In this document: piece after piece, positions 9,274-64,000 of the stretch | Numbering within the stretch: the first letter of the stretch is position 1 | Layout: the number at the start of each line of letters is the position of its first letter | From: Gaiellaceae bacterium | GTDB lineage: Bacteria; Actinomycetota; Thermoleophilia; Gaiellales; Gaiellaceae | Assembly (NCBI GenBank): GCA_030446625.1 | Contig: JAUJMY010000013.1 | Coordinates: forward strand, 1-64,000 | Reading direction: 5' to 3' | DNA length: 64,000 nt | The notes under the pieces: generated by a model | What the model saw: the letters and a program-made list of their open reading frames with translations, nothing else | Databases searched by the model: none | What the model was told of the DNA's origin: nothing | Position numbers and translations under genes: made by a program

Positions 9274-10574
9274 CAGCTGCGCTCGATCGTCGCGTTGATG
9301 AACGAGCCGATCCCGGCCGCGCTCGAGGCGATCTCGTTGTCGCCGACCTCGGCGTTCGCCCAGTAGTGGGCGACGATCGCGTAGCCGGCGCGCGTCGGGT
9401 TGCCGGACGCCCGGTCCGGCCGCGTGTCGCGCACGGTGTTCTGGTCGATCTCGCACATGGAGTAGTCGCCGCAGAAGATGCCGATCCCGAGCGCCGAGCG
9501 GACCTCGTTCTTCTCGACGTTCCCCATCGACATCTCCGTGACCGCGATCGCGCGCAGCCCCGTGCCGCTGACGCGGTTGTGGTGGAAGTGCACGCGCGCG
9601 AGGTGCGAGACGATGCCCTCCGCTCCGCCCGTCACCGTGCATCCGTGGACGACGCTCGGCGCGAGCTGGAGCGCGAAGGAGACGTCGATGCCCTGGGCCC
9701 GGTCGCCGGCCGAGCGCACTGCGCAGTCCCTGATCGTGACCGACGCGCGCCGGACGCTGATCCCGTCGAGCTCGGCGCCGCGGACCTCCACGCGCTCGAG
9801 CAGCACGCTCTGTGCGTCCCGCACCTCGATCCCGTGCTCGCCTCCGGACACGGTCAGGTCGCGCACCACGACGTCGTCCGCGGTGATCAGGATCCCGCCG
9901 CGCACCACGGTGCCGGGCGAGCCGACGAGGCGCTGCGCCCGGTCCAGCACGAGCGGCCCCTCGTGGACGCCGGCGGCGAGCCGGATCGTCGGCGGGCGCT
10001 GCTCCCAGCCGAATCCGGTCGCGACGGCGACGAGCGCGACCGCCGCGCCGGCGAGCGCGAGGCGCCGCGGCGTGCGGAGCTCCCAGAGCCGCCGGTGCAG
10101 CCCGAAGCCGAAGTAGCCGCCGAGCACGAGCGCGAAGACGAGCGTGTTCAGCGCGAAGTGGAGCTCGACGAGGCTGAAGTGGTGCCCGAGGATCCCCGGC
10201 GTCGGCGAGCGGCGGCCGTTCGCGAACCACTGCGCGAGCTTCTCGGCATGCTCGACGACGTGGTAGCCCTGGATCGCGATTCCGGCGCCGAGCGAGCTCC
10301 ACGCTCCGGGGTGCCGCTCGCGCCACGCGCGGCGCCAGAGGCCGAAGCCGACGACGAGCGCGACGAGCGCGGCGAGGATCGACGCGTTGTACGCGAAGTG
10401 GATCCACTCGAGGTCGAACGCGAACCCGAGGAGGCCGCGGCAGTCGTTCGGGCAGCTGGCGCCGAGCGCGTCCTTCTGCACCACCTGTGCCACGTGCTCC
10501 GCCTCGTGCGCGGCCATCACCGCGACGAGCAGCGTGAACGCGACGGCGAGCGCGGCAGCCGCGCGGCGGGTCAT
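9273..10574 (-). CDS. membrane protein with right-handed beta-helix (copper-site NosD-like) domain
   Basis: 433-aa protein in two parts. The N-terminal half has about five TM segments and a His-rich helical region (HEAEHVAQ, HVVEHAEK, ILGHHFSLVELHFALN). The C-terminal half is a parallel beta-helix: repeated short strands such as GGILITADDVVVRDLTVSG, HGIEVRDAQSVLLERVEV, GIFCGDYSMCEIDQNTV. Such domains resemble NosD/carbohydrate-binding repeats and would sit outside the membrane. The start ATG 10574 overlaps the permease stop (ATGA), so it is translationally coupled to the importer. The histidines could bind metal or heme; function unknown. Confidence 0.8.
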   Translation of the reverse strand: MTRRAAAALAVAFTLLVAVMAAHEAEHVAQVVQKDALGASCPNDCRGLLGFAFDLEWIHFAYNASILAALVALVVGFGLWRRAWRERHPGAWSSLGAGIAIQGYHVVEHAEKLAQWFANGRRSPTPGILGHHFSLVELHFALNTLVFALVLGGYFGFGLHRRLWELRTPRRLALAGAAVALVAVATGFGWEQRPPTIRLAAGVHEGPLVLDRAQRLVGSPGTVVRGGILITADDVVVRDLTVSGGEHGIEVRDAQSVLLERVEVRGAELDGISVRRASVTIRDCAVRSAGDRAQGIDVSFALQLAPSVVHGCTVTGGAEGIVSHLARVHFHHNRVSGTGLRAIAVTEMSMGNVEKNEVRSALGIGIFCGDYSMCEIDQNTVRDTRPDRASGNPTRAGYAIVAHYWANAEVGDNEIASSAAGIGSFINATIERS

Positions 10575-11461
10575 TTCACGGAGCCTGCGAGGAGCCCCTG
10601 GACGAAGTACCGCTGGAAGGCGGCGAAGACGATCAGCGGGATCACGGCGGAGAAGAACGACGCCGGCGCCAGCACGTCCAGGTTCGAGCCGAACTGGCGC
10701 AGCTGCGACGCGAGGTGCGGGGCGATCGGCTGGTTGTTCTGCGCGAGCACGAGCCCGATGAGGAGGTCGTTCCAGACGAAGAGCACCTGGAAGATCGCGA
10801 GCGACGCGATCGCGGGCAGCCCGAGCGGGAGCACGACCTTGAAGAAGAGGCGGATCTCGGACGCGCCGTCGATCCGCGCCGCCTCCATCAGATCCTTCGG
10901 GATCCCGGCGAAGAAGTTCCGCAGCAGGAAGATCGCGAACGGGAGCGCGAACGCGGTGTGGAAGAGGATCAGGCCGGGGATCGTGTCGAAGAGGTTGAAG
11001 CGGTTGTAGAGCGAGAAGATCGGGATCAGGGCCATCTGGATCGGCACCAGCAGCAGGCCGACGACCGCGAGGAAGAGCCAGTCGCGCCCGGGGAACTCGA
11101 TCCACGCCAGTGCGTACGCCGCCAGCGCGGCGACGAGGATCGGCAGCACGGTCGCGCCGATCGTGATCTGCGCGGTCCGCAGGAGCGCGTCGACGATGCC
11201 CTCGTTGTCGAACATGCGCCGGTAGTTCTCGAACGTCCACGTGCTCGGCTTGGCGAAGAAGTTCCACCACCCGCCCTGCGCCTGGTCCGAGGCCGTGAGC
11301 AGCGACGTGACGAAGAGGCCGGTCGTCGGGATCAGCCAGAAGAGCCCGATCAGGATCAGCACGAGGTGGACCGGGGCGCGGCCGAGAGCGCGCAGGATCT
11401 TCGGGGCGAGCCCCTCCTCGATCACGACCGGCTGGGCTCTGTCGATCGCAGCGGTGGCCAT
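10571..11461 (-). CDS. sugar ABC transporter permease, MalG type
   Basis: Inner-membrane permease of a carbohydrate (CUT1) ABC importer, 296 aa with six predicted TM helices. The EAA loop that docks the ATPase reads EAARIDGASEIRLFFKVVLP, at the usual distance from the C terminus. It pairs with the MalF-type permease at 11625, the binding lipoprotein at 13071 and the ATPase at 14390, which form a complete importer. It is separated from the MalF gene by a 163-base gap holding a long imperfect palindrome, so its expression may differ from the genes before it. The substrate is probably an oligosaccharide; which one is not readable. Confidence 0.93.
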   Translation of the reverse strand: MATAAIDRAQPVVIEEGLAPKILRALGRAPVHLVLILIGLFWLIPTTGLFVTSLLTASDQAQGGWWNFFAKPSTWTFENYRRMFDNEGIVDALLRTAQITIGATVLPILVAALAAYALAWIEFPGRDWLFLAVVGLLLVPIQMALIPIFSLYNRFNLFDTIPGLILFHTAFALPFAIFLLRNFFAGIPKDLMEAARIDGASEIRLFFKVVLPLGLPAIASLAIFQVLFVWNDLLIGLVLAQNNQPIAPHLASQLRQFGSNLDVLAPASFFSAVIPLIVFAAFQRYFVQGLLAGSVK

Positions 11462-51440: not shown

Positions 51441-52487
51441 GTGATGCGCGTCCTCGGGCCGGTTCGCACTGACGGCTCGGTCAACGGTCTGAGTTCTGCT
51501 GAAGCCGAAGCTGCGCTTCGGCGCGCGATTCTCGCGAGCCAGGAGGTGCGGCGGCCGACGGAAGCGGTCGCACTTGAGGAAGCTGGGAGGAGGTATCTCG
51601 CGAACCGGGAGGCGCTCGGGCTAAAAACCGGCACGCTCAGTGACTACGAGTCATACCTGCGCGTCCACCTCATCCCATTCTTTGGCGAGCGCCCGCTGAA
51701 CGAGATCGGCCTGGAGCTGATCGAGGATTTCGTCGAGAGGAAACGTGCGGAGGGGAAGGCACTGAAAAGCATCAGGAACTACCTCGGCTTGCTGCACGCG
51801 ATCTTTGCGCACGCGCTGAGACGTGGCTGGTGCGCCGGTAATCCGGTCGCCGCCGTAGATAAGCCGCGCGAGCAACGCGCCAACGACATCCGCTACCTAA
51901 CCGCGGCGGAACTTGACGCCCTCGTGGGCGCGACGCCGAACAACCCGCTCGGTCAGCTCGAGCGGGTCCTCTACCTCACCGCGGCCATGACCGGGATGCG
52001 CCGCGGCGAGCTGCTCGCGCTCCGCTGGCAGGACGTCGACTGGAAAGCCGGTGTCATCCGCGTCCGCCGGACGTTCACCCGCGGTCAGTTCGGAACGCCG
52101 AAGACGCGGCGGTCGAGTCGCGCGGTGCCGATCGCCGACCGCGTCCGCGCGGAGCTTCGGCACCACTGCGCTCGGTCGGCGTTCACGGATGAGTTGGATC
52201 TCGTGTTCTCGCACCCCGTATCCGGCAGCGTGCTCGACCCGTCGAAGGTGCGGAAGCGATTCCAGGCGGCGGCCCGGCGTGCGGAACTCCGGCCCATGCG
52301 CTTTCACGACCTCCGGCACACGTTCGGAACCCGAATGGCCGCCGCAGGCGCACCGCTGCGCGCAATTCAAGAGTGGCTCGGGCACAGCGATCAGCGGACG
52401 ACGCTGATCTACGCCGACTATGCCCCTGACCTGACGCAGGGAGCCATGTGGGCAGCACGGGCGTTCGGCGGTGACGATCGCGTCTAG
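51441..52487 (+). CDS. int: tyrosine recombinase/integrase
   Basis: 348 aa in the intact frame, beginning with GTG 51441 just after the frameshift. SAM-like core-binding domain: LSDYESYLRVHLIPFFGERP to ALRRGWCAGNPV. Catalytic domain residues are complete: Arg187 (TGMRRGELL), His289 and Arg292 (HDLRHTFG), His315 (WLGHSDQ) and the nucleophile Tyr324 (TTLIYADY). Missing is most of the N-terminal arm-binding domain, so arm-site recognition may be lost. It should have served the element bounded on the left by tRNA-Asp fragment D. Confidence 0.88.
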   Translation: MMRVLGPVRTDGSVNGLSSAEAEAALRRAILASQEVRRPTEAVALEEAGRRYLANREALGLKTGTLSDYESYLRVHLIPFFGERPLNEIGLELIEDFVERKRAEGKALKSIRNYLGLLHAIFAHALRRGWCAGNPVAAVDKPREQRANDIRYLTAAELDALVGATPNNPLGQLERVLYLTAAMTGMRRGELLALRWQDVDWKAGVIRVRRTFTRGQFGTPKTRRSSRAVPIADRVRAELRHHCARSAFTDELDLVFSHPVSGSVLDPSKVRKRFQAAARRAELRPMRFHDLRHTFGTRMAAAGAPLRAIQEWLGHSDQRTTLIYADYAPDLTQGAMWAARAFGGDDRV

Positions 52488-52671
52488 AGGTCGTCGTGTC
52501 GGCCACGACGCCTACGTCGCTCGCCGTTCGACCGCCGTTGGCGAAGAGGACTCAACGGCTAGCGACAAGCGCGCCGGCCAGCCGAGTTGACACTCTGCGC
52601 GCGACCCGGACTTCGAGAGGCGCCCCTCGACGCGCTTGTCCGTCCCGAGGTCGATCTATGCTGCGCGAGCG

Positions 52672-53250
52672 ATGGCGTCCCGGGCGATCTGGACGATCGG
52701 GCACTCAAACCTTCGGTTTGAGATGTTCGCCTCGCTGCTTGTCTGCCAGAACATCGCATACGTCGCTGACGTCAGGTCTTACCCGTACTCGCGGTTTGCG
52801 CCGCAATTCAACCGAGAAGCTCTTGACGTAGCTCTTCGGGAACGCGGCATCCGGTACCTCTTTCTCGGCGAAGAGCTGGGCGGCCGTCCGTCTACGGCCG
52901 AGCACTACGACGCCGAGGGCCGTGCTCTCTATGGAGCGATGTCGCGAGAGCCCAAGTTCCTAGAGGCCATCACCCGCCTGGTTGCCGGAGCCAGAGATCA
53001 TCGGATCGCCATCGTGTGTAGCGAAGCGGACCCGACTACCTGCCATCGCCGTCTGCTTGTTGGCAAGGTCTTGGCTGAGCATGGTCTTCAGTTACACCAC
53101 ATTCACGCCGACGGGTCCACGACCGTGGAGGATCGCGTTACGTTGGATCCCACTAACCAACGTTCCCTCTTCGAAGAAGGGCCAGAGGCGTGGAGATCTA
53201 CACAATCGGTTTCACACAGACGACGGCTGAACACTTCTTCCGCCGCCTAG
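52672..53250 (+). CDS. DUF488 family protein (1)
   Basis: 192 aa from ATG 52672. DUF488 hallmarks: AIWTIGHSNLRFEMFASLL, VADVRSYPYSRFAPQFN, YLFLGEELGG, and near the end IAIVCSEADPTTCHRRLLVG. The conserved Arg, Ser/Cys and His residues suggest an enzyme, but no reaction is established for the family. A TTGACA box at 52587 could belong to its promoter. It overlaps the second DUF488 gene by 61 bp, an unusually long overlap. First gene of a three-gene cassette. Confidence 0.85.
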   Translation: MASRAIWTIGHSNLRFEMFASLLVCQNIAYVADVRSYPYSRFAPQFNREALDVALRERGIRYLFLGEELGGRPSTAEHYDAEGRALYGAMSREPKFLEAITRLVAGARDHRIAIVCSEADPTTCHRRLLVGKVLAEHGLQLHHIHADGSTTVEDRVTLDPTNQRSLFEEGPEAWRSTQSVSHRRRLNTSSAA

Positions 53251-53627
53251 CTGACGCTCGCGTCGAACGGCTTCTAGACGTACGACTCAACAACTCTTCC
53301 CAGCTCGCGGGGTTCGCGAAGTCACAGGATTTCTCTTACTTCCTTCGCGAGCTAATCGGCGCCTCGTACGAGCACGACCCTCGTCTCGCTCCTACGCAGG
53401 AGCTCCTCGACGAGTACAGGAAGCGCCGAGGGTCGTGGGAAGCCTACGAACACGCCTTCATGAATCTCATGTCTGAGCGGCGGATTGAGTCAACGCTGTC
53501 GCCGTCAGATTTCGAGGTTCCGACAGCTTTGCTGTGCAGCGAGGCAACGGCCAATCGCTGCCATCGACGTCTCGTGTGCGAATACCTCGCCGAGCATTGG
53601 GCCGATGTGCGGGCGGTACATCTCTGA
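53190..53627 (+). CDS. DUF488 family protein (2)
   Basis: 145 aa, GTG start inside the end of the first DUF488 gene. It is shorter and divergent: EIYTIGFTQTTAEHFFRRLA, RLLDVRLNNSSQLAGFAKSQ, DFSYFLRELIGASYEHDP, ALLCSEATANRCHRRLVCEY. The DVR and CHRR motifs are kept. A tandem pair of unequal DUF488 proteins suggests a heteromeric complex. Stop and next start overlap (TGATG). Confidence 0.85.
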   Translation: MEIYTIGFTQTTAEHFFRRLADARVERLLDVRLNNSSQLAGFAKSQDFSYFLRELIGASYEHDPRLAPTQELLDEYRKRRGSWEAYEHAFMNLMSERRIESTLSPSDFEVPTALLCSEATANRCHRRLVCEYLAEHWADVRAVHL

Positions 53628-54325
53628 TGGAGATCATCGTCAACCACTTGACGCGAATGACCGCGCCTCGGATCTGTATCGCTGGCATAGATCCTGCGAC
53701 AGACCGGCATGTGCGCCCGACAACCGCTGCAAGCAATCCGCTCACTCGCAGCCTGCTAGACGAGGAGGGAGGCCCTTTCGGGTTGGGCGCGTGCGTTGAT
53801 CTCGGCGAGGTACGACCCAACCCCTCACGTCCCGAAAGCGAGGATCACCTCTTCTCGCCAGCGGCGGTGACAGCGGTTAGGCAGCTCGAGCCAGACGAGT
53901 ACCTTGACACGCTGGACGATGTGGCCGAAGACGACCTGCATTCAATCTTCGGCCCGGATCTGGAACGGCGCGGCCGCTCGTTCGCAATTGAGGAAGGACG
54001 GGGCGAAGTATCCCTTGGTGTGCTCCGACCGCAGCGAGCGCGGCGCCTACTAATCGACAGTTACGGCAAGCTACGACTGCGGCTGAACGACTTCGACGAA
54101 CCAGCGGACCTCGGTGTCACGGATCTTCGGTTTGTCGAGGCCGATCACTCGACACTCCGACGTGAGGTGATCGACGACTTCCACCGACGATTGAGACGTG
54201 GTGTCGCTGTCCGTCTGATGGTCGGGCTCGCAAGGGCGTTCGTAGCGACAGGGGATGACCGGCGGCGTCACTGGCTACAAGTCAATGGGATCTGTTTGGA
54301 GGACCAGCCACTTCAAAACGCCTAA
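53627..54325 (+). CDS. dual-OB-domain-like protein
   Basis: 232 aa from ATG 53627. The opening EIIVNHLTRMTAPRICIAGI and DPATDRHVRPTTAASNPLTR matches proteins annotated as dual OB domain-containing, which accompany DUF488 genes. The rest is beta-rich (LRPQRARRLLIDSYGKLRLR, GVTDLRFVEADHSTLRREVI). OB folds bind nucleic acids or small ligands. With the two DUF488 genes it forms one translationally coupled cassette, probably one functional unit; the function is unknown and a nucleic-acid role is inference. Confidence 0.75.
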   Translation: MEIIVNHLTRMTAPRICIAGIDPATDRHVRPTTAASNPLTRSLLDEEGGPFGLGACVDLGEVRPNPSRPESEDHLFSPAAVTAVRQLEPDEYLDTLDDVAEDDLHSIFGPDLERRGRSFAIEEGRGEVSLGVLRPQRARRLLIDSYGKLRLRLNDFDEPADLGVTDLRFVEADHSTLRREVIDDFHRRLRRGVAVRLMVGLARAFVATGDDRRRHWLQVNGICLEDQPLQNA

Positions 54326-54418: not shown

Positions 54419-55021
54419 TCATGAGCTCGCGAGCCGCCTTTCGAGGCGCTCCTCCTTAATCGCGATCCAGAGCGCCTCGCGGCTAACGGTGAAGCGACGT
54501 CGGAGGGCTTCGACGTCCGGTGTCTCGCGAACCGCGCGTCGGAGGATCTCTCGCGGGATGAGGAGCGCGCTCGCGAACTGGTTCGCTTCGCTCTCGGAGT
54601 TGTCGTCGGTTCCGCGCGTATGGAGGATCAGATGACCCAACTCGTGCGCGATCGTGAACCGCTGGCGGGTGCGGGCGTGGTCAGCGTTCACGGTGAGGAC
54701 ATCGTCGTCGACGAAGCCATCGATCTCGCCGAGATGCTTGCGTACAACGCGAAGCCCTTCGCCGACCGCAATCCGTTCGACGTCGACAGGCGGTTCGACG
54801 ATCTTGTAGCAGGCGAGTAGCCGCTCAGCTTCGCTGCGAACATCCGCTGCGCGCTGAGAGTGATGCAGTCGCTCCGTAGGAGCGGCTCGCTCCCAGTCGG
54901 CATCCTCGATCTCGACCTCGTCCTCACCGCACGCGGGGCAGCCGCTCATCGCGGCAAGCGCGGAGCGCTCGAAGAAGCGGTGCCCGCATTCGTGGCTCTG
55001 GCAGACGAAGTAGGGCATCAT
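54419..55021 (-). CDS. ImmA/IrrE-type metalloprotease with N-terminal zinc ribbon
   Basis: 200 aa. Residues 1-35 have a zinc ribbon (Cys7, Cys12, Cys28, Cys31). The peptidase domain carries HELGH at 126-130 and a third ligand Glu145 in SEANQFASALL, with the typical HTH-like tail EALRRRFTVSREALWIAIKE. ImmA/IrrE proteases cleave a specific repressor on DNA damage or other stress and so switch on genes. Start overlaps the stop of the anti-sigma-like gene (ATGA). Likely targets are the HTH or anti-sigma-like products nearby. The 94 bases to the convergent dual-OB gene hold no clear terminator. Confidence 0.88.
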   Translation of the reverse strand: MMPYFVCQSHECGHRFFERSALAAMSGCPACGEDEVEIEDADWERAAPTERLHHSQRAADVRSEAERLLACYKIVEPPVDVERIAVGEGLRVVRKHLGEIDGFVDDDVLTVNADHARTRQRFTIAHELGHLILHTRGTDDNSESEANQFASALLIPREILRRAVRETPDVEALRRRFTVSREALWIAIKEERLERRLASS

Positions 55022-56205
55022 CGGCCTGACTTCTCGTCGAGCGCGGCAAGAACGTCGTTGATGTAGGCGCGTTTCCGTCGCTCAACCTCGTCCTGCGTCA
55101 GTGCGGGAGCCGCCGCTTCGAAAGGCCTGCGCATCGCCCTGGCGCGTGCTTGCCCTCGCCGCCCTGACGTTCGCGCGAAGACGCGGCCAGTTCCGGACGC
55201 CCCGACGAGCGCCCAATTAGCGTCTTCGTCGAATGATCGGCTGAGCGCCGCGTCGAGATCGTCGCGATCGAGCTCAGCGTCTCGATAGGGGCCGGTAAGG
55301 ATCGCGGCGACGAGGTCGTGGTTCAGCAGGACGGGGTCGATCCTGTTCGCGCACACAAGCTCAACGTGCCTTCGCTCGAACCCGATCTCGCGCGCGTACT
55401 CCGTTGTCTCGTAGCCCTGCTCGTTAAGCCACTGGGTAAGCAGCGCACCAGCCGTGAGCGCTCCAGCGGCGCGCTCACGAGCTTCAGCATCTGCTTCGAC
55501 AGCGTCTGCTGCGAGAAGCCGAGCCGCGGGGCGATAAAAGCGCTGAGCACGCTCTAGCTCCTCGTCTTGGAAGACTAGGCGCGAATCTTCATCGGCGATG
55601 GTCGGCAGGCCGTCGCCGACCGGCGCAGCCGTTACCTGCGCCTCCTCTGCTACGTCGTCGAGCTCCCCGATCGCGGCTGCGTAGAGGGCGGCCAGCTTCT
55701 CCCAGGCGTTGTCCTCGACGACGCCGCGCTGCTCTTCGAGTTGCTCCCGTAGCAGTGTCCCGTGATTCCAAACCTCGGCCATCACGTCGTAGCCGAGCCG
55801 CGTCTGCGCGCGACCGAGCACGATGTCAGCGTCAGTCGCGAGCTCCGTCTCGGTCGAGAGCGGCGCAACCACGACTCCGTCTGTCCCCGCGGCATCGGAC
55901 TCAGTGTCGAGGACGACAGCGAGAAGGAGCTCGCCTGGAGCCTCCGGACTCGACGCGACAACGACGGCACCCTCACCAACTTCGGTCGGGCGCTGCTCCT
56001 CTTCTGACGATGGCTCGCCAACGGACTGCCGGTCTGCTGGAGCGGCAACGGACGATGGCGGTGACGCGCCTTCCTCGGCAAGAAGTCGAAGAAGCGCACG
56101 GCAGCGGCGGCAGGTCTCGAGATGGCGAGAGACCGCCTCGTTCGCGCTCTCGAGCTGGGCGCGCAGCTCTTCGAGGGTCGGGCAGCTGATGTTGTTCGTG
56201 GTCAC
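55018..56205 (-). CDS. anti-sigma-like zinc protein
   Basis: 395 aa. An N-terminal HxxxCxxC motif (His28, Cys32, Cys35 in SRHLETCRRCRALLRLL) is the mark of zinc-binding anti-sigma (ZAS) domains. A long acidic, Ser/Glu-rich linker (about 45-130) follows, then a helical C-terminal region with an HTH-like part (LNEQGYETTEYAREIGFERR) and a basic end. No TM segment, so it acts in the cytoplasm. The gene follows the sigma-like gene by 6 bases, the classical order for a sigma and its anti-sigma. Function inferred from motif and position. Confidence 0.7.
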   Translation of the reverse strand: MTTNNISCPTLEELRAQLESANEAVSRHLETCRRCRALLRLLAEEGASPPSSVAAPADRQSVGEPSSEEEQRPTEVGEGAVVVASSPEAPGELLLAVVLDTESDAAGTDGVVVAPLSTETELATDADIVLGRAQTRLGYDVMAEVWNHGTLLREQLEEQRGVVEDNAWEKLAALYAAAIGELDDVAEEAQVTAAPVGDGLPTIADEDSRLVFQDEELERAQRFYRPAARLLAADAVEADAEARERAAGALTAGALLTQWLNEQGYETTEYAREIGFERRHVELVCANRIDPVLLNHDLVAAILTGPYRDAELDRDDLDAALSRSFDEDANWALVGASGTGRVFARTSGRRGQARARAMRRPFEAAAPALTQDEVERRKRAYINDVLAALDEKSGR

Positions 56206-56211
56206 ATCCTC

Positions 56212-57165
56212 TTAAGACAGGACGTCGAGGATCTTTTCCAAGATCTCGTCGCGGCTGAAATCGGCAGTGTGCCGCTCAATCGCCTCCCCGGCGCGCCGCA
56301 GCTCGTTATCAACGGTGCCGCGCGAGATGCCAAGCGCAAAGGCGATCGTCTCGAGTGGCTGGTCGCGCTTGCGCAGGATCACCTCAACCTGCCGGTCGCT
56401 GAGCTCGGAGAGGACCGCGATCGCGGCCGCTCGCAGCCCTGCCTCGTCACGGAGCGGATCCTCGTGGCCTAGCAGGCTTTCGTGCTCTTCGTCCAACGGC
56501 AGGCGCGTGGGCTCGTCGAGGTTGAAGCGCCGCCGGAAGACGACGGCGAGATGCCCGAGGGTGAGGAGCGCTTGCGTGCGGCCGAACAGCTTCTCGAGGA
56601 ACCGCCCGAGTACCGCGGTGGCGAGAACAGGGCTGGCGCGCTCAACTGAGGAAGAGTAGGTCCAAAGGACAACATCGCCGATGGCCCAGGCGTGGGCGAC
56701 GAGTTCGTCGTCGCGTCCGCCAAACGGTGGCGGCTGCGTGTCGCCCGCCAGTCCCCACCACGATCCGGCCTGCTGCGGGATCCATTCGCGGAAGCGCGTG
56801 TCGCCGCGCAGGAGGCGCGCGCTCCGCTCAAGCAGGTTGTCGATCTCGCGGCGCTCGCGGTCGTTCTGCAGGTGGTGGCGAAGGTTCCGCTCGAGCGACC
56901 GGATGAACGGGCGGGCGGCACTGGCGTGGTCGAAGGCCGCAGCCAGAGCATTGGTGGCGACGAGCCGCTTTGCCGTCCAGCCGGCGAGGGCTTCCTCAGC
57001 TCCTTCCTCGTCCCATTTCCCCGTCGGCGAATACGCGGGCGGGAAGGCCCGCTGGAAGGCGAGCGTGAAGACGAGACGCCGCAGAAGAGCGAAGAGCTCC
57101 GGATCGATCGCGCCGGTCTCGCGGTAGCGGCGCTTCATCCGACGGAAGGACGCGTCGTTAAGCAT
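56212..57165 (-). CDS. divergent sigma-factor-like protein
   Basis: 317 aa. The C-terminal part has a sigma region 4-type HTH: LSELSDRQVEVILRKRDQPL, ETIAFALGISRGTVDNELRR. The N-terminal half resembles sigma region 2, with helices including TAKRLVATNALAAAFDHASA, RPFIRSLERNLRHHLQNDRE and RREIDNLLERSARLL. The central region is longer than in ECF factors, and similarity to known groups is weak by eye. It overlaps the MazF-like gene upstream by 8 bp and is followed by the zinc anti-sigma-like gene. It is a candidate reader of the shared promoter block at 57729 and 60082. Confidence 0.68.
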   Translation of the reverse strand: MLNDASFRRMKRRYRETGAIDPELFALLRRLVFTLAFQRAFPPAYSPTGKWDEEGAEEALAGWTAKRLVATNALAAAFDHASAARPFIRSLERNLRHHLQNDRERREIDNLLERSARLLRGDTRFREWIPQQAGSWWGLAGDTQPPPFGGRDDELVAHAWAIGDVVLWTYSSSVERASPVLATAVLGRFLEKLFGRTQALLTLGHLAVVFRRRFNLDEPTRLPLDEEHESLLGHEDPLRDEAGLRAAAIAVLSELSDRQVEVILRKRDQPLETIAFALGISRGTVDNELRRAGEAIERHTADFSRDEILEKILDVLS

Positions 57166-57517
57166 CGTGCCTCCGCGTCGTGGTGTGCCGCCGCCACTGC
57201 TCCTTCACCTGCTCGAGATACCGGTTCGGGAGATAGCCGATCGATTCGCAGCGCGCGGTGAGGCTGATCCGCACGGGTGCGCTCCAGGGGACGAACCGAC
57301 CTTCCTTGAGTCCTTCGACGGCACCATCGGGAACGTAAACGCCGCGCGTTCCTTTCGTGCTCTGAGGCACGACCCGGACGCGGCCGCCGAAGGGTTTCCC
57401 GATGACGAGATAGGGGCGGCCCTCTTTCGGGCCGTCCGGTGGGCTGAACTTGTCGAAGCCGGTGTCGACGTCGTTCATGCGGACCAGTTCACCGTCGATC
57501 GGTGCCAGATCCGACAC
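57158..57517 (-). CDS. small beta-rich protein, PemK/MazF-like
   Basis: About 119 aa from GTG 57517 (a later ATG at 57478 is possible; the upstream frame is Arg-rich and unlikely). The pattern GRPYLVIGKPFGGRVRVVPQ, STKGTRGVYVPDG, EGRFVPWSAPVRISL and an end helix LPNRYLEQVKEQWRRH resembles the SH3-like barrel of PemK/MazF proteins. No neighbouring antitoxin of the MazE type is seen. It heads the minus-strand regulatory operon and is divergent from the ubiquitin-like operon. Toxin activity is a guess. Confidence 0.6.
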   Translation of the reverse strand: MSDLAPIDGELVRMNDVDTGFDKFSPPDGPKEGRPYLVIGKPFGGRVRVVPQSTKGTRGVYVPDGAVEGLKEGRFVPWSAPVRISLTARCESIGYLPNRYLEQVKEQWRRHTTTRRHDA

Positions 57518-57728
57518 GCGGTCACCGTAACCGGCTTGTCGGAGCCCCGACGCTCTCCCCTGAGCAGGCTGTGAACCGGAGTCGTCGCTATTGCGGACGC
57601 GGCGAATCGTTTTCTGCCTCCGAGCGTGGGTTGCTGCGTCGCGGCCGTCAGGGCGGCGCGACACCCACACCTCGTTGATGCGCCCGATCTCCTTACTCGC
57701 CGCGCCTTTTCACCTGCCGTGGCCGGTG

Positions 57729-57811: not shown

Positions 57812-58078
57812 GTGACAGAGACAGCAGAGAACAGAGCAACAAAGCCGAGGCACACGATCGACATCTCGATCGACGGCGAGATGTACGCGGCGCCGGCGAG
57901 GGAGATGACGGCCGACGACATCCTCCGGCTCGCCGGCATCGACCCGAGCGAGAACTACCTCGTCAAGAAGCGCGGCCGGGACCAGGTCTCGTACCAGGGC
58001 AAGGGCTCCGAGCTGATCAGGCTCCACGAGCGCCAGACTTTCATCAGCGTCCCCACCGGCGACGCGACGGTGTCGTAG
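57812..58078 (+). CDS. ubiquitin-like protein (multiubiquitin-family single domain)
   Basis: 88 aa from GTG 57812; AGAGGTGA at 57799 is its ribosome-binding site, so I prefer it to GTG 57803. Beta-grasp pattern: RHTIDISIDGEMYAAPAREM (strands 1-2), TADDILRLAGIDPSENYLVK (helix), KRGRDQVSYQG and the final strand QTFISVPTGDATVS. It belongs with the prokaryotic multiubiquitin family, here as one domain. There is no terminal Gly-Gly; Gly83 is followed by five residues that a JAB peptidase could trim. It begins the operon with E2-like and JAB-E1 genes, so it is the predicted modifier. Confidence 0.82.
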   Translation: MTETAENRATKPRHTIDISIDGEMYAAPAREMTADDILRLAGIDPSENYLVKKRGRDQVSYQGKGSELIRLHERQTFISVPTGDATVS

Positions 58079-58507
58079 ATGAGCGAGCGCACTGACGACT
58101 TCGTGGCGCAGCTTCGCGCGCTCGCGCACGAGCCGGAGCTGCGCCCGAACGAGTTCGTCGTCTTCGACTACGAGGTCGAGGTCGGGAAGCACACCGGCGA
58201 GTCGGTGAAAGTCGGCCTGCAGGTCCCGGCCGACTGGCCGATGAGTCCGCCCAGCGGCCCGTTCGTCTCGCCCCGCCTGCTGCCGATCAACCCGTCCAGC
58301 GGCCGCGGCCGGCCGTGGGATGCCGTACACGCGGCGCATGGGCGCGGCCTCGACGACCCCCGCGGCGTCTGGGAGTATTGGAGCCGGCCGTTCACCGCGT
58401 GGCCGAGAACCGACCGCAGCGTCAAGGCCTACCTGCGACACCTGCGCACCCTCTTCGCCGAGATCACGCAGGCGGCTGACGAGGATGATGAGGCCAGGGC
58501 AGCATGA
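58079..58507 (+). CDS. E2-like protein (prokaryotic E2 family E) with no cysteine
   Basis: 142 aa; ATG immediately follows the previous stop. UBC-fold features: FVVFDYEVEVGKHTGESVKV, LQVPADWPMSPPSGPFVSPR with the E2-type proline-rich turn, then GRPWDAVHAAHGRGLDD and GVWEYWSRPFTAWPRTDRSV, LRHLRTLFAEI helices. This matches the prokaryotic E2 family E associated with multiubiquitin genes. The whole protein lacks cysteine, so it cannot form the thioester of ordinary E2 enzymes. It may be a scaffold or use Ser/Asp/His chemistry. It overlaps the E1 gene by 4 bp. Confidence 0.8.
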   Translation: MSERTDDFVAQLRALAHEPELRPNEFVVFDYEVEVGKHTGESVKVGLQVPADWPMSPPSGPFVSPRLLPINPSSGRGRPWDAVHAAHGRGLDDPRGVWEYWSRPFTAWPRTDRSVKAYLRHLRTLFAEITQAADEDDEARAA

Positions 58508-60048
58508 ATTACGCGGCAGCGCTGACGCTCGAGACGCACGCCGCGCTCGTCGCGCACCTCCTGCAGCACCACCGCGACGAGGACGTCTGCTTCGCGCTCT
58601 ACCGCCCTAGCCGCGGCCAGACGCGCTTCACCGGACTGATCGCCGATCCGATCCTGCCGCGCGACGGCGAGCGGCGCGTACACGGAAATGCCTCCGTTAG
58701 TGCCGGCTACTTTGAGCGCGCGCTACGGGTCGCGGTTGCTGAGGGTGCAGGCCTCGCGTTCCTGCACAGCCACGCGCGTCGCTCGCGCGGCTGGCAGGAG
58801 ATGAGCTGCGACGACCTCGACACAGAACAGCTCTACGCGCCGCGCGCGCTCGCGATGACGGACCTCCCACTCCTTGGGTTGACGCTTGCAGGGAATGAAT
58901 TCTGGAGCGCGCGCGTCTGGGATAGGTCCGGGCGCAGCGAGTATGCGCGCCATGACTGCGAGAGCGTGCGCGTCGTCGGCGAGCGGCTCGCGCTGTCCTT
59001 CCAGCCGAGGCTGCGGCCGGCGCCGGGCTTCCGCGTGGAGCTCAGCCGCACCGTCTCGGCTTGGGGCGAGCAAGCGCAGACGGATCTCGCCCGGCTGCAT
59101 ATCGGCATCGTCGGCCTCGGGAACGTCGGCGCACTCGTCGCCGAAGCGCTCGCGCGCAGCGGCGTGGCGTGGCTGACGCTGATCGACTTCGACACGGTCA
59201 AACTCGTGAATCTCGACCGGCTGCTCAATGCGACGCTGCGCGACGCCGAGCTCGGTCGCAGCAAGGTCGAGGTCGCGCAGACGGCGCTGCTCGCGCATGC
59301 GACCGCCGCCGACCCGAGGATCGACGCGTACGAGTGGAGCATCGTCGAGGAGGAGGGGTTTCGCGCGGCGCTCGATTGCGACGTCCTCTTCTCCTGCGTC
59401 GATCGCCCGTGGGCGCGCGCCGTGCTCAACTTCGCCGCCTACGCACACCTCGTGCCGGTCGTGGACGGCGGTATCCGCGTGCGGGCGCGGGGCGGACGGA
59501 TGCGCTCTGCCGACTGGAGGGCGCACGTTGCCATGCCGGGTCGTCGCTGCCTTGAGTGCCTAGAGCAGTTCAACCCCGCCTTCGTCACGCTCGAGCGGCA
59601 GGGTGATCTCGACGATCCGTCCTATCTCGACTCGCTTCCCCAGGATCATCCGCTCCGCAGCAACGAAAATGTCTTCGCATTCGGGATGGCGGCCGCCTCC
59701 CTCGAACTGATGCAACTGCTCCAGATGGTGGTCGCGCCAGGCGGAGTCGCAGACGTTGGCAGCCAGCACTACAACCTCAAGACCGGGCTGATCGACCTCG
59801 AGACGCGCGGCTGCGAGCCCGGATGCACATATTCGGAGCGGCTTCTTGGTGTAGGTGAGGACGCCTTCTTCTCTCCGCTTGGCGAACATCCGGTAGCGCA
59901 AGCGGAGCGCGAGGCGCGCCGGCGCGCTCAGCGCGAGCTGCAGCGGTCAGAGGCGCCCGCACCGTCCGTCCGCGGGCGTCTCCAGCGGCTCAAGACCTCG
60001 GCGCTCGAGAGAATCCGCCCTCGCCTGCGGCCGGAGCGGCCGAGCTAG
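58504..60048 (+). CDS. JAB peptidase-E1 (ThiF) fusion
   Basis: 514 aa in two domains. Residues 1-165: JAB/MPN+ metallopeptidase with HSH (88-90), Ser101 and Asp104, and an upstream acidic residue near Glu26. Residues 185-450: E1/ThiF adenylating domain with GLGNVG (204-209), Asp230, NLDR with Arg239, and Lys254 for ATP; Cys298 in FSCVDRP; zinc pairs Cys349/Cys352 and Cys437/Cys441. The C-terminal 60 residues are basic. It should trim and then adenylate the ubiquitin-like protein; the JAB domain may also remove it from targets. One polypeptide thus carries both E1 and processing activities. Confidence 0.88.
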   Translation: MNYAAALTLETHAALVAHLLQHHRDEDVCFALYRPSRGQTRFTGLIADPILPRDGERRVHGNASVSAGYFERALRVAVAEGAGLAFLHSHARRSRGWQEMSCDDLDTEQLYAPRALAMTDLPLLGLTLAGNEFWSARVWDRSGRSEYARHDCESVRVVGERLALSFQPRLRPAPGFRVELSRTVSAWGEQAQTDLARLHIGIVGLGNVGALVAEALARSGVAWLTLIDFDTVKLVNLDRLLNATLRDAELGRSKVEVAQTALLAHATAADPRIDAYEWSIVEEEGFRAALDCDVLFSCVDRPWARAVLNFAAYAHLVPVVDGGIRVRARGGRMRSADWRAHVAMPGRRCLECLEQFNPAFVTLERQGDLDDPSYLDSLPQDHPLRSNENVFAFGMAAASLELMQLLQMVVAPGGVADVGSQHYNLKTGLIDLETRGCEPGCTYSERLLGVGEDAFFSPLGEHPVAQAEREARRRAQRELQRSEAPAPSVRGRLQRLKTSALERIRPRLRPERPS

Positions 60049-60158: not shown

Positions 60159-60287
60159 ATGGCCGATCGTCGTGCCGGCAAGGGGCCGTACGTTCGCGAC
60201 GAGGGCGGCGGTAAGCAGCCGCGCTCGCGCAACCAGGACGGCCGGTGGCGCGCGAAGCGCAGCGACGCCAAGAAGACGAAGAGCTGA
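60159..60287 (+). CDS. 42-residue basic protein
   Basis: ATG 60159 is preceded by the best Shine-Dalgarno sequence in the region (AAGGAGGTGAG, 60147-60157). The product starts ADRRAGKGPYVRDEGGGKQP and ends RSDAKKTKS, with 14 Lys/Arg in 42 residues, one Trp and no Cys. It has its own promoter-like block and a 9-bp terminator stem three bases after the stop codon, so it is a real, separately expressed gene. Family not recognised. Lysine-rich and under the same putative control as the ubiquitin-like operon, it might be a conjugation target, a nucleic-acid binder or a regulator. Confidence 0.7.
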   Translation: MADRRAGKGPYVRDEGGGKQPRSRNQDGRWRAKRSDAKKTKS

Positions 60288-60385: not shown

Positions 60386-60835
60386 ATGAGCGGCGAAGGC
60401 ATCGGCGAGCTTCCTGAGGTTTCGCAGGCGGTGCTCGCCGAGTACCGGCTTGTGCGCGCTCGCATCGCAGAGCAGCGGGCCCAGGTTGACCGCCTGCGCG
60501 CGCTTGTTGAGCGGCTCGAAGAGCAGGTCTCACGCGACGAGCGATTCGTCGGCGAGCTAGAGAGCGCGTGTGGGCTTGCCGATCAGCTGCGGATCGAGGA
60601 GCTCGACCCGATCCTGCGGGGCGAGCGGCTGCGCGAGGTCGCACTCCAAGTACTCGCCGAGGAGGTCGGGCCGGGGCGCGAGATCCACTACCGAGACTGG
60701 TTCGCGCTCGTCCGGCGGGCAGGGCACCAGATCGGCGGCCGCGACCCGCTCGCGACCTTCCTCGCGCAGGTGAGCCGCGCGGAGGGCGTCGTTCCGATCG
60801 GCGGCCGCACCGGGCTCTATCGCCTCGCCGCCTAA
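60386..60835 (+). CDS. coiled-coil plus winged-helix (HARE-HTH-like) protein
   Basis: 149 aa from ATG 60386. Residues 15-65 form a coiled coil (VRARIAEQRAQVDRLRALVE, RLEEQVSRDERFVGELESA). Residues 75-149 look like a HARE-HTH winged helix: REVALQVLAEEVGPGREIHY, RDWFALVRRAGHQIGGRDPL, ATFLAQVSRAEGVVPIG, ending YRLA. HARE-HTH domains occur with restriction and chromatin-type proteins and bind DNA. It lies between the small basic gene and the second sigma module. A short dyad-like region (60862-60900) precedes the next gene. Confidence 0.75.
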   Translation: MSGEGIGELPEVSQAVLAEYRLVRARIAEQRAQVDRLRALVERLEEQVSRDERFVGELESACGLADQLRIEELDPILRGERLREVALQVLAEEVGPGREIHYRDWFALVRRAGHQIGGRDPLATFLAQVSRAEGVVPIGGRTGLYRLAA

Positions 60836-60922: not shown

Positions 60923-61711
60923 GTGACTACGTCTAGCTACAACGCCTCGGGTTCGTCTGACCCTCTGGTCGAGCCGTCCGGCGGGGCGACGGCGCGACCG
61001 ACGACCGGCGTAAGCGACTCCGACCTCCGGCACGAGTCGTCCTCGACGACGCAATCCCGCCCCGCGGACAAAGGGGCCTCGCAGCCCGTGCAGCCAAGAG
61101 ACGATGCTCACGACGCGGACGATGCCGAGCTCCTTCGCGAAATCACGCGGCTACGCCGCGAGCGGGAGATCGTCGCGAGGCTGATCGGCGGTTGGGAGCC
61201 GATCTTCCGCGGCTGGCTTGTCTCCCGCATTGGGCGGCAGGAGGCCGAGGAGGTTGCGAGCCGGATCGTGGTGCGCCTCGTCGAGCTGCTCGCGAGTGGA
61301 CGGACGATACGGGCTGCCTGGGGTGCATGCGTGTGGCGGATCGTTCGCGACGAGGTGTTCACGTACCACCAACGACGGACGAAGTCGCAGCAGCGCGAGC
61401 GCCTCGTGGCTGACGTCTACGCCGCCTCCGGCGAGCGCGAGGTCGCGGATCGCGCCGAGGACATCCGCCTCGATCCTGACCGGGACGCCACACGGCTGAC
61501 CGAGCTTGTGAAGCAGCTCTCCGACCGGGATCAGCGCGTCATCGAGCTTGCGATCATCGAGGAGCGGCCGCGGCCCGAGGCGGCCGCGCTACTCGGGCTG
61601 ACAGTGAACGCTTTCGACCAGGCGCGCCACCGGGCGGTCGAGCACCTCGCCAAGCTCGCCGCTGCGCACGGCGTAAGCGGAAGCGGCAATAGCGACGAGC
61701 AGGAGACATGA
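60923..61711 (+). CDS. sigma-70-like factor with disordered N terminus
   Basis: 262 aa, GTG start. Residues 1-65 are Ser/Thr/Pro-rich and probably unstructured. Region 2-like: WEPIFRGWLVSRIGRQEAEE, VASRIVVRLVELLASG, ACVWRIVRDEVFTYHQRRTK. Region 4-like HTH: LVKQLSDRDQRVIELAIIEE, RPRPEAAALLGLTVNAFDQA, RHRAVEHLAKL. Size and layout fit an ECF-type factor. It opens a plus-strand operon in which four genes overlap (ATGA, ATGA, 8 bp, TGATG). It is the other candidate for reading the shared promoter block. Confidence 0.75.
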   Translation: MTTSSYNASGSSDPLVEPSGGATARPTTGVSDSDLRHESSSTTQSRPADKGASQPVQPRDDAHDADDAELLREITRLRREREIVARLIGGWEPIFRGWLVSRIGRQEAEEVASRIVVRLVELLASGRTIRAAWGACVWRIVRDEVFTYHQRRTKSQQRERLVADVYAASGEREVADRAEDIRLDPDRDATRLTELVKQLSDRDQRVIELAIIEERPRPEAAALLGLTVNAFDQARHRAVEHLAKLAAAHGVSGSGNSDEQET

Positions 61712-62106
61712 GCATCCGCCTCCACCAGCTGGACATCCACTACGCCGCACTGTCGGATGACGAGATCGAGCAGCTGTGGCGCACCTCGACGGCAGGCGAC
61801 CACGACGTGGCAGTTGTGCGCCAACTCGTCCTGCGCGCCCTGGAGGTCATCCATGTCACCTGCGCTGAAGCGGGAAAGGCCGCGGGGTTGACGCAGGACG
61901 ACGTCGTACGCGCGTGCGATGAGGTGGCGGTCAGGCTGTTCGCGCGACTTGGCCGAGATCGCAGCATCAAGAGCGTTCGCGCAGTCGCGCACGCACTAGC
62001 GCTAGAGGTCGTTGCCGATCGGGAGCGCCGACGCTCGCCGACGGAGCCCCGCCTGATCGAGCGCCGACCGCGACTCACGCTGATCGAAGGGAAGGTGCAG
62101 GAATGA
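61708..62106 (+). CDS. small sigma-region-like protein
   Basis: 132 aa; ATG overlaps the previous stop. The middle resembles sigma region 2 helices: VRQLVLRALEVIHVTCAEAG, KAAGLTQDDVVRACDEVAVR, LFARLGRDRSIKSVRAVAHA. No region 4 HTH is present. It could be a truncated sigma paralogue, a co-regulator or an anti-sigma binding decoy. Assignment is tentative. Confidence 0.55.
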   Translation: MSIRLHQLDIHYAALSDDEIEQLWRTSTAGDHDVAVVRQLVLRALEVIHVTCAEAGKAAGLTQDDVVRACDEVAVRLFARLGRDRSIKSVRAVAHALALEVVADRERRRSPTEPRLIERRPRLTLIEGKVQE

Positions 62107-62729
62107 GCGCTTCTGTCGAGCGGGTCTTTCTCGAAGCGCTTGACGATCTTCGCGCCGGGCGCGTCGAGCAGGTCGACCACTATCTGGAACTCGTTCCAGC
62201 ATCGGAGCGCGCAAAGCTGGCCGACCTCCTTGCCATGTACTTCGCCTCACGGCGGCACCCCGTTCGCCACGAGGTGCCACCTGCGACCTACGAGCGGATT
62301 CTCGCCACCCTCGACCGCGTCACCGAGACGGCGGGGCAGTCGGGGACGCTGCCGGGGCTACTCGCAGAGCTTCGACGAACGCGCGGCTTGCGCCGCCAGG
62401 AGATCACGCGCGCCCTCTGCCAGCTCTTGAATCTCGGCGAGGACGCGCTCGTCCAACTCGAGCGGGAATACCACCGTCTCGAAACCGGGCAGCTCGATGG
62501 CCGCCGCCTCAGCCGACGTCTTCTCGAGGCACTGGGTCACATCTTTCGCATGCCGGTCGACGACCTCGCAGCGGCAAGCGCGCCGCTCGGCGAGCAGACG
62601 CCGCCCGCCGCCCGCCGCTTTGCCCGCTCGAAGGGCGCTGTCACTGCCGCCACGCACGCGCCGTCAGCGCAGCCGGAGAAACACGATCCAGAGGTGCGCA
62701 CCCTCTTCTACGGCGGTCGCGATGCCTGA
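62103..62729 (+). CDS. HTH protein, possible ImmR/anti-sigma-like repressor
   Basis: 208 aa. Residues about 20-55 are helical (VDHYLELVPASERAKLADLL). Residues 82-120 have an HTH-like segment: LPGLLAELRRTRGLRRQEIT, RALCQLLNLGEDALVQLERE. The remainder is a linker and a basic C terminus. Encoded directly before an ImmA/IrrE protease and overlapping it by 8 bp, it is the expected position of the repressor that the protease cleaves. No zinc motif is present, in contrast to the minus-strand module. Confidence 0.6.
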   Translation: MSASVERVFLEALDDLRAGRVEQVDHYLELVPASERAKLADLLAMYFASRRHPVRHEVPPATYERILATLDRVTETAGQSGTLPGLLAELRRTRGLRRQEITRALCQLLNLGEDALVQLEREYHRLETGQLDGRRLSRRLLEALGHIFRMPVDDLAAASAPLGEQTPPAARRFARSKGAVTAATHAPSAQPEKHDPEVRTLFYGGRDA

Positions 62730-63261
62730 CCCCGAGGCGGTGGCGATGCAGATTCTCTCGCGCTATGAACAGGACTACTGCTACGACGGAACGCCGCCGG
62801 TTCCCGTCGATGAAATCGCCGCGTCGCTTGCGCTTCTGCACATCGAGGAGGCCGACGATCTGCGGACGGTGCCAGGGGCACCGCTTGGCCTCGGCCGCCT
62901 CTCCGGCCTCCTCCTCACCGAGACGATGACGATCTACGTCGCGCGGGAGGAGGCGGCGCGCAGCCCTGGTCGTCGGCGCTTCACGATCGCCCACGAACTC
63001 GGGCACTGGTACCTGCACGCCGAAGGCGTTAGCGACTTCACCCGCTACTGTCGCGACGCCGACCTCGTCGCCGAGCGCCACATGGAAGGTGAGGCGAATG
63101 CCTTTGCCGCTGCGCTGCTGACGCCCGAGCCGATCCTGCGCGAGCAGGCTGAAGCGACGGGGCTCAACCTGCCGCTACTGGCGCGCCGCTTCGATGTTTC
63201 GCTCCCCGCTCTGCACCTTCGCCTGCTCAAGCTCGACCTTCTACCCGCGTGGATGCGCTGA
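62722..63261 (+). CDS. ImmA/IrrE-type metalloprotease
   Basis: 179 aa from ATG 62722. Zinc motif HELGH at 91-95 in RRFTIAHELGHWYLHAEG, with the third ligand in MEGEANAFAAALL (Glu124). C-terminal helices LPLLARRFDVSLPALHLRLL resemble the HTH-like region of ImmA proteins. It lacks the N-terminal zinc ribbon seen in the minus-strand copy. It is expected to cleave the repressor encoded by the preceding gene on a stress signal. Its stop overlaps the start of the nuclease gene (TGATG). Confidence 0.88.
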   Translation: MPDPEAVAMQILSRYEQDYCYDGTPPVPVDEIAASLALLHIEEADDLRTVPGAPLGLGRLSGLLLTETMTIYVAREEAARSPGRRRFTIAHELGHWYLHAEGVSDFTRYCRDADLVAERHMEGEANAFAAALLTPEPILREQAEATGLNLPLLARRFDVSLPALHLRLLKLDLLPAWMR

Positions 63262-64000
63262 TGCTGATCGCTCACATTTCCGACACGCATCTCGGCCACC
63301 GGCACCTGCACCACGTCGACGGCGAAGGCCGCAACGTCCGCGAACATGACGTCTACGGCGCCTTCAGCGCAGCGATCGACGCGATCATCGAGATCCAGCC
63401 AGCGTGCGTCGTGCACGCCGGAGACTTCTTCGACAGCTACCACCCCTCAACGCGGGCGCTCACGGTTGCACTCGATGGAGTCGCCAAGCTGCGCGACGCC
63501 GGCATCCCCTTCGTGGGGATCGCCGGCAATCACTCAACTCCCCGGCAGCGCAGCACCGAGCACGTCTTCTCGCTTCTCAGCCGCTTCGGCGGCGAGCTCA
63601 TTTGGCAGGAGCCGCGCGTCGTCACGGTCAATGGTCTGGCGGTCCATGGCATCCCGCACCAACACGACGCCGAAGCGCTCGCGGCGACCGTCGCCGCCGC
63701 TTCGCCGGTCGCGGACGCCGACTACAACGTGCTGCTCCTGCACGGCGGGTTCGACACGCTGTCGCAGGTCGGTGCAGGCGAGCCTGGCTCGCTCACGCTC
63801 GACCCTGAAGTCCTGCAGGCAGCGAGCGAGTTCGACTACGTCGCGCTCGGACATCTCCACATCGAACAACCGGCTCGCCTGAACGCCTACTACGCCGGCT
63901 CGCTCGAGCGGCTCACCTTCGGCGACTCAGCGCGCCGCAAAGGCTTTGTCGTTGTTGACCTCGCTCGCAGTCCGACCGACGACGCTCGGCTTCGCCTCCA
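63261..64000 (+). CDS. SbcD/Mre11-like nuclease (partial, runs off the window)
   Basis: 246 codons in the window, no stop. Calcineurin-type metallophosphoesterase motifs in order: HISDTHLGH (Asp8, His10), VVHAGDFFDSY (Asp55), GIAGNHS (Asn90, His91), NVLLLHGGFD (His161) and YVALGHLHIEQP (His198, His200). The order and spacing match SbcD/Mre11 DNA-end nucleases, which act with an SbcC/Rad50 ATPase. Such an ATPase gene may follow beyond the window. Translational coupling to the ImmA/IrrE gene suggests that the nuclease is an output of this stress-regulated module. Confidence 0.88.
   Translation, partial: MLIAHISDTHLGHRHLHHVDGEGRNVREHDVYGAFSAAIDAIIEIQPACVVHAGDFFDSYHPSTRALTVALDGVAKLRDAGIPFVGIAGNHSTPRQRSTEHVFSLLSRFGGELIWQEPRVVTVNGLAVHGIPHQHDAEALAATVAAASPVADADYNVLLLHGGFDTLSQVGAGEPGSLTLDPEVLQAASEFDYVALGHLHIEQPARLNAYYAGSLERLTFGDSARRKGFVVVDLARSPTDDARLRL

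Follow-up and report, generated by a model that had tools for sequence, protein, structure and literature searches.

Positions 57812-60048 of a 64,000-nucleotide stretch of Gaiellaceae bacterium DNA (GCA_030446625.1, contig JAUJMY010000013.1, positions 1 to 64,000; the whole stretch is referred to as the window) carry three genes that form a minimal Bub operon (BubA-BubB-BubCD). They encode a ubiquitin-like protein (Ubl), an E2-like protein with a ubiquitin-conjugating (UBC) fold, and a fusion of a JAB peptidase with an E1 adenylation domain. The operon is of type 6e as described by Iyer et al. 2006 (PMC1779556), with the gene set of that type (Ubl, cysteine-less E2, and JAB-E1) present together, and its core is a new instance of a class already known. 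Bub, a bacterial relative of ubiquitin tagging, was described only recently; its role in the cell is not yet settled, and according to PMC13373217 no protection against phage has been demonstrated for it. An operon this small, with one Ubl domain, a cysteine-free E2, and a JAB-E1 protein, offers a compact test case for ester-based tagging. The explanation that best fits the locus as a whole, and one we consider moderately probable, is a minimal Bub operon that would tag its targets through serine esters under sigma/anti-sigma control. The three genes are as follows.

57812-58078, + strand: BubA-like single beta-grasp Ubl, 88 amino acids (aa), GTG start, C-terminus ...GDATVS without GG
58079-58507, + strand: BubB-like protein of 142 aa with a UBC fold and without cysteine; Ser102, in the context YWSRP, is the candidate acceptor
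58504-60048, + strand: BubCD-like fusion of a JAB (JAMM) domain and an E1 adenylation domain, 514 aa

The sequence AGAGGTGAG precedes the GTG start of the Ubl gene at 57812, the E2-like open reading frame (ORF) begins at the base directly after the Ubl stop, and the JAB-E1 ORF overlaps the E2-like ORF by 4 bases. This spacing suggests that the three genes form a single translationally coupled operon. The order Ubl - E2 - JAB-E1 is repeated in relatives and is therefore no chance set of ORFs. The original prediction, made from the letters of the window, had described three coupled genes, one of them encoding an 88-aa Ubl; these genes, all on the same strand, are real and intact.

The JAB-E1 protein is homologous to BubCD across both halves. 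Among solved structures, its family profile finds Citrobacter BubCD first, at E=1.3e-51 in a match that spans 7-406 of the 487 profile positions, while MoeB scores lower (3.2e-26); the window protein by itself reaches BubCD at 4.7e-18. Among the matches listed (25 of 34 in NCBIfam, 25 of 32 in PADLOC), the E1 half meets mostly E1/ThiF-type models, those listed from PADLOC being without exception 'E1-E2' models. The Ubl and E2 assignments are based on family profiles and structures. Multi_ubiq is matched by 13 of 14 rows of the Ubl family (best 3.9e-12), Prok-E2_E is matched by 7 of 17 rows of the E2 family, and the 17-row E2 profile has Citrobacter BubB (9eae_C) as its top structure at E=3.2e-7. 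The Ubl profile matches structures weakly (8u38 at 0.0013), and the Ubl model (predicted local distance difference test, pLDDT, 78.6) retrieves the multi-ubiquitin 8u38 best in Foldseek (E=8e-5) and BubA(155-229) in 9ea8_B at E=4.4e-3. On these profiles and structures, the identities first proposed for the three proteins (a Ubl, an E2-family-E-like protein, and a JAB-E1 fusion) are borne out. Of the families named with that proposal, ThiF is recognized for the window protein alone (Pfam, 4.3e-28), whereas Multi_ubiq (E=0.0015 for the Ubl) and Prok-E2_E (0.071 for the E2-like protein) fall below the Pfam cut-offs and the JAB half meets no recognized family in the Pfam search of the window JAB-E1; NCBIfam and PADLOC give no match for the Ubl or the E2-like protein. 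E2/UBC proteins are most of the 50 listed Foldseek matches of the E2 model, with BubB at rank 3. Several points weigh against the E2 assignment. The best Foldseek E-value is 0.02 and none of 298 matches lies below E=0.001, the model is moderate, with a mean pLDDT of 77 that drops to about 47-67 in residues 61-110, the stretch containing Ser102, and the window E2 alone has no significant match in the PDB or Pfam.

At E 1e-10, 3 of 61 near genomes hold a relative of the JAB-E1 protein; at 1e-15 the phylum yields 13 of 396 genomes, and at 1e-30 the class yields 4 of 399, these three counts including the query genome. Relatives are further found in 5 of 394 genomes of another class at 1e-40, in 1 of 3 and 1 of 24 genomes of two further classes (in each case the search-centre genome only), and, again at 1e-15, in 64 of 72,556 plasmid records. 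Genomes recur between these counts. The closest named relatives, which are plasmid-borne, are Actinomycetota. A tblastn search of phages returned no JAB-E1 relative at E 1e-8, and peptide-pattern scans of genome and viral contigs with the E1, a method that detects close relatives only, confirmed none. Prok-JAB matches also lie on other contigs of the window's own genome.

The catalytic residues of the fusion are strictly conserved. In 15 aligned JAB-E1 rows (labels L0xx denote loci of relatives; L022, L023, L039, and L044-L047 are left out of this alignment), the JAMM residues E26, H88, H90, S101, and D104 are identical throughout, as are the nucleotide-site residues G204, G206, G209, D228, D230, N236, R239, K254, and D300, in agreement with the intact metal-site and ATP-site motifs first reported for the window protein. 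The window E2-like protein, in turn, has no cysteine, and its family has no conserved cysteine column, the best being occupied in 7 of 17 rows, the window not among them; 6 of the 17 rows contain no cysteine at all. The column of Ser102 holds serine in 16 of these rows and a gap in the other, is followed by arginine in the 14 closer rows, and is aligned to the WSR of BubB in the E2 profile match. Because of the zero cysteines, the lack of a conserved cysteine column, and the conserved serine, the protein is, as judged from its sequence, not a classical thioester E2. By analogy with Bub, the chemistry is probably an oxyester relay; Bub conjugation reportedly proceeds wholly through oxyesters (Ye et al. 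are said to have described this in 2026), which a conserved serine would fit.

Only three E1 cysteine columns (349, 352, and 441) are kept in at least 14 of the 15 rows, and their pattern is one we take to be a MoeB-type zinc site; no conserved cysteine of catalytic appearance is seen in the 15 E1 rows. The C-termini of 14 aligned Ubl rows read VA (10), VS (3), or VE (1), the window ending in ...DATVS without a terminal GG. Five Ubls (L023, L029, and L031-L033) have two domains, with the tail on the last domain only. The description of the locus as the core of a ubiquitin-type system needs correction: it holds for the gene set, but the E2 has no catalytic cysteine and the Ubl no terminal GG.

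These residues also bear on which chemistry is likely. Canonical ubiquitin-type thioester conjugation, in which the Ubl is carried on E1 and E2 cysteines, agrees with the gene set and fold relations and draws on features of the relatives that weigh against an oxyester relay: a cysteine about 8 residues before the serine is aligned in 7 of 17 E2-like rows (L023, L029-L034), a subgroup in which a thiol relay may operate; 12 of 15 E1 rows retain C298; and 3 of 14 Ubl rows (L029, L031, and L032) end in GGVA, so that trimming to a GG end is possible in these. Yet the window E2 has no thiol to offer, the best-kept E1 cysteines resemble a zinc site, and the window Ubl has no GG end, and this chemistry is quite improbable. 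The E2-like protein could instead be a non-catalytic RWD-like adaptor, the E1 passing the Ubl straight to lysines. Iyer et al. 2006 (PMC1779556) judge the type 6e E2 catalytically inactive because its cysteine is absent, as it is in the window E2; the near-invariant serine, the arginine next to it in the closer rows, and the alignment to the WSR of BubB argue otherwise, and an adaptor role is unlikely, if less so than the thioester route. Least probable of all is a ThiS/MoaD-MoeB-like system that serves sulfur transfer or cofactors, with no protein tagging. The E1 half is indeed like MoeB/ThiF, but the fused JAMM domain, the UBC-fold partner, the ranking of BubCD before MoeB, the Ubl without a C-terminal GG, and identified neighbors that are regulators and defence-type genes all speak against it.

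In the favored Bub reading, the E1 half of BubCD would adenylate the C-terminus of the single-domain Ubl, which would then be handed, in complex with UBC-fold BubB, to target amino groups via serine ester-type intermediates, the leading candidate for the acceptor being Ser102 of BubB. The fused JAMM peptidase would trim the Ubl or strip it from targets.

Citrobacter Bub (PDB 9ea4, 9eae, 9ea8) has the same JAB-E1 fusion, UBC-fold partner, beta-grasp Ubl, and serine in WSR. It differs from the window system in its Ubl, the solved BubA fragment running to residue 229 rather than comprising a single 88-aa Ubl, and in a JAMM spacing that is narrower in the aligned segment than the HxHx10SxxD of the window; the window operon, moreover, has sigma-factor modules as neighbors. 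The Bil (bacterial ISG15-like) pathway follows the same logic of Ubl, E2, E1, and JAB. The window Ubl matches the Ubl-BilA deposit 8u38 in profile and fold, whereas the E1 and E2 profiles of the window family match Bub structures first. Type 6e of Iyer et al. (PMC1779556) shares 1-3 Ubl repeats, a cysteine-less E2/RWD-like protein, a JAB domain N-terminal to the E1, and a sporadic, mobile distribution; its zinc protein (C-x3-C-x(35-38)-H-x2-C, as given there) is not seen by eye in the 42- and 148-aa ORFs downstream of the window operon.

The operon is flanked on both sides by regulatory genes.

54419-55021, - strand: ImmA/IrrE (M78) metallopeptidase, CapP-like, 200 aa; Peptidase_M78 1.2e-21, PADLOC capP 3.7e-24 as best model
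55018-56205, - strand: putative zinc-binding anti-sigma protein, 395 aa; C..H-x3-C-x2-C at the N-terminus
56212-57165, - strand: sigma-70-like factor (region 4) of the divergent module, 317 aa
57158-57556, - strand: small protein, first gene of the divergent sigma module, 132 codons as read from 57556; the start is uncertain, and the frame is open as far as 57670
60159-60287, + strand: 42-codon basic small ORF 3' of the JAB-E1 gene, with AGGAGGTGAG ahead of its ATG
60389-60835, + strand: 148-aa protein with weak coiled-coil-type matches only and no Pfam family above cut-off
60923-61711, + strand: second sigma-70 factor (extracytoplasmic function-like), 262 aa; Sigma70_r4_2 3.3e-8, above the Pfam cut-off
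61708-62729, + strand: pair of small coupled proteins of 132 and 208 aa, located between sigma and ImmA at the position of an anti-sigma protein or repressor
62728-63261, + strand: second ImmA/IrrE (M78) peptidase, CapP-like, 177 codons, exact start uncertain; Peptidase_M78 6.5e-18, capP 1.4e-25

Sigma and ImmA genes stand on both sides of the operon, as the original prediction had it, and the 42-residue gene that it placed beside the operon and took to be co-regulated is present as an ORF. The first sigma-like protein matches Sigma70_r4_2 at 1.1e-4 and 22.2 bits, below the cut-off of 25.7 (25.3 bits in a second search, 25.9 there together with its neighbors in the frame), and its homologues adjoin the Bub operons of L019 (5e-57) and L039 (1.3e-57). 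The second sigma factor stays below the cut-offs of the NCBIfam sigma models. The protein at 55018-56205 has no Pfam match; its homologues adjoin the relatives' operons as well (5.4e-25 and 2.2e-27), with C8, H28, C32, and C35 identical in 3 of 3 homologues and a sigma gene adjoining. An H-x3-C-x2-C motif beside a sigma gene defines zinc anti-sigma proteins. No Pfam helix-turn-helix (HTH) family is found in 55018-56205 or 61708-62729, where sigma factors adjoin instead, and the 61708-62729 proteins have no family above cut-off. The same holds for the 57158-57556 protein, which corresponds in position to frames of 112 aa in L019 and 116 aa in L039 and has no sequence match to them. A homologue of the 148-aa protein lies 3' of the L039 operon (10223-10945, - strand, 1.9e-11). 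The 42-codon ORF has no family and no homologue in Pfam, NCBIfam, PADLOC, or the relatives' loci, and no alignment was obtained with the 51-aa ORF upstream of the Ubl gene in L027. In the window's own genome (92.9% complete, 2.71 Mb), 2 of 4 M78 matches flank the operon where 0.015 are expected in the 10.2-kb span, and 2 of 37 sigma region-4 matches fall in that span against 0.14 expected.

Controllers of this kind recur across 19 loci in which the JAB-E1 shares at least about 39% identity with the window protein: the window itself, L019, L039, L020-L023, L027-L034, and L044-L047. The plasmid loci L027-L034 are 8 of the 10 best plasmid matches (H5 and H10 left out), and their record annotation was also used for neighbor calls. 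An XRE/ImmA module, that is, an M78 peptidase accompanied by an HTH regulator or fused to one, is present in 11 of 19 (L020, L023, L029-L034, L044, L046, and L047). A sigma gene is present in 7 of 19, in three arrangements. The window, L019, and L039 pair the sigma factor with a zinc anti-sigma-like protein; L027 has a sigma factor, a 222-aa protein, and ImmA; and L021 (3869-7370), L028 (9134-12653), and L045 (9822-13284) combine, as one unit, a sigma-like protein and a Rad50-like ATPase with a coupled protein of 286-336 aa, with a Rad50 zinc-hook match in L045 and one below cut-off in L028. This last unit is possibly a sigma switch that senses DNA ends. Controller-type neighbors are found in 18 of 19 loci, and the remaining one, L022, has a Rad50-like gene, part of such a unit, at its contig end. 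By coordinates, the module is divergent at the operon 5' end in 16 of 19, the exceptions being L022, L027, and L028. Close plasmid pairs (L030/L034, L032/L033, and L029/L031) are near-duplicates, so the 19 loci are not independent events. Of four more distant loci inspected, L024 has sigma, L026 an ImmA-like gene, and L025 and L035 neither; the neighbor survey stops short of the distant loci L005, L013-L016, and L018 and of the other plasmid matches.

The sigma/ImmA setting had been called unusual, which does not hold: such a module, or part of one, adjoins the operon in all 19 loci. For ImmA the linkage is already published, PMC4963859 reporting 70% of PF14452 proteins beside COG2856/DUF955 (ImmA) loci. 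A literature search, which did not pair the exact terms and was thin on subscription papers and preprints, found no report of sigma modules beside Bub or multiubiquitin operons, and the combination with sigma modules is possibly new as a variant.

No M78 gene is present in the modules of L019 and L039. Between the Ubl operon and sigma, these two loci share three genes (L019 5200-7400, L039 4095-6083) that are 48.9, 52.8, and 69.6% identical, including a protein of 376/384 aa (49% identical between the two) with HEMAH and, later, EEIACD. This zinc-peptidase-like signature speaks mildly for a switch; the L019 protein has no Pfam family. A single family for the proteins between sigma and ImmA/Rad50 was considered and is not supported: the L021/L028/L045 family aligns to window 62103-62726 at an hhalign E of 0.41 and to the anti-sigma family at 0.31. 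Two of the JAB-E1 genes in the survey are interrupted: in L023 (7146-11278) the gene is in pieces with an IstA/IstB-like transposase pair, identified by eye, between them, and in L039 (7178-8736) the break in the frame coincides with two unread bases.

The nearest precedent for control is the CapH+CapP pair of CBASS (cyclic oligonucleotide-based antiphage signaling system) and Bub operons. According to PMC13373217, single-stranded DNA (ssDNA) activates CapP, which cuts the repressor CapH; of 544 Bub operons, 219 have CapH+CapP or CapW as neighbors and 59 have CapK+CapS, and in the tested cases CapH+CapP, CapK+CapS, and CapW control the adjacent operon. PprI/IrrE is also ssDNA-activated (PMC10904395). 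The window shares with CapH+CapP a CapP-like M78 peptidase adjoining the operon; in contrast, the peptidase is partnered by a sigma factor together with either a putative zinc anti-sigma protein or unnamed proteins, and by no HTH repressor recognized by Pfam. The flanking sigma/anti-sigma modules probably hold operon expression off and then release it. As both window ImmA proteins match CapP best, we infer a DNA-damage switch, in which the CapP-like ImmA, activated by ssDNA, would cut the anti-sigma protein, so that the sigma factor becomes available to the Bub operon. The sigma/anti-sigma/peptidase and sigma/Rad50-like neighbors point to such a trigger and offer a route to the inducing signal. 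A broader proposal is more tentative still and on balance doubtful: Actinobacterial Bub operons would have swapped CapH for sigma switches (with a CapP-like peptidase in the window, another zinc peptidase in L019 and L039, and a Rad50-like sensor in L021, L028, and L045) that drive cysteine-free serine-ester tagging as a DNA-damage or anti-invader response.

The sigma/ImmA modules could also be independent neighbors that belong to a defence island as addiction or toxin-antitoxin units and exert no control over Bub, an alternative with a real if minority claim. PMC4963859 interprets ImmA neighbors as stabilizing toxin-antitoxin loci; RelE-type genes accompany the ImmA gene in L030 and L034; SbcCD-like and Wadjet-like genes extend the island; and defence-island clustering alone could gather such neighbors. 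A search for a promoter motif common to the window, L019, L039, and L020 gave only 14-base stretches with 2 mismatches, which are taken as chance. Against independence stand the divergent 5' placement in most loci, the recurrence of the neighbors with changing module type, and the demonstrated control of adjacent operons by the Cap systems (PMC13373217).

The Bub operon lies in a probable defence island, in view of the SbcD/SbcC-like and Wadjet-like genes downstream.

63249-64000, + strand: SbcD/Mre11-like nuclease, continuing past the window; then an SbcC-like ATPase and a Wadjet-like set (3250-13287 of L036, the window's own contig past base 64000)

The SbcD/SbcC names for the genes from 63249 onward are presumptive, from our own reading of the sequences; in PADLOC these genes match other families (PDC-S10, mad3). 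The four consecutive genes directly after them (L036 7350-13287) make up the Wadjet-like set, of which the last two match JetC (1.8e-13), JetD (9.8e-13), and JetD_C (5.9e-6), and JetA and JetB are assigned by position only. No tRNA was detected in the window or L036, and no attachment site is therefore proposed. Upstream, the large-subunit GpA ATPase of a phage terminase (47089-49062, 3.8e-24) and a tyrosine integrase (51441-52484, 5.2e-34) suggest a prophage remnant or integrative element. Between the integrase and the divergent module, a pair of neighboring DUF488 proteins makes up, together with a dual-OB domain protein, a small separate cluster at 52636-54322.

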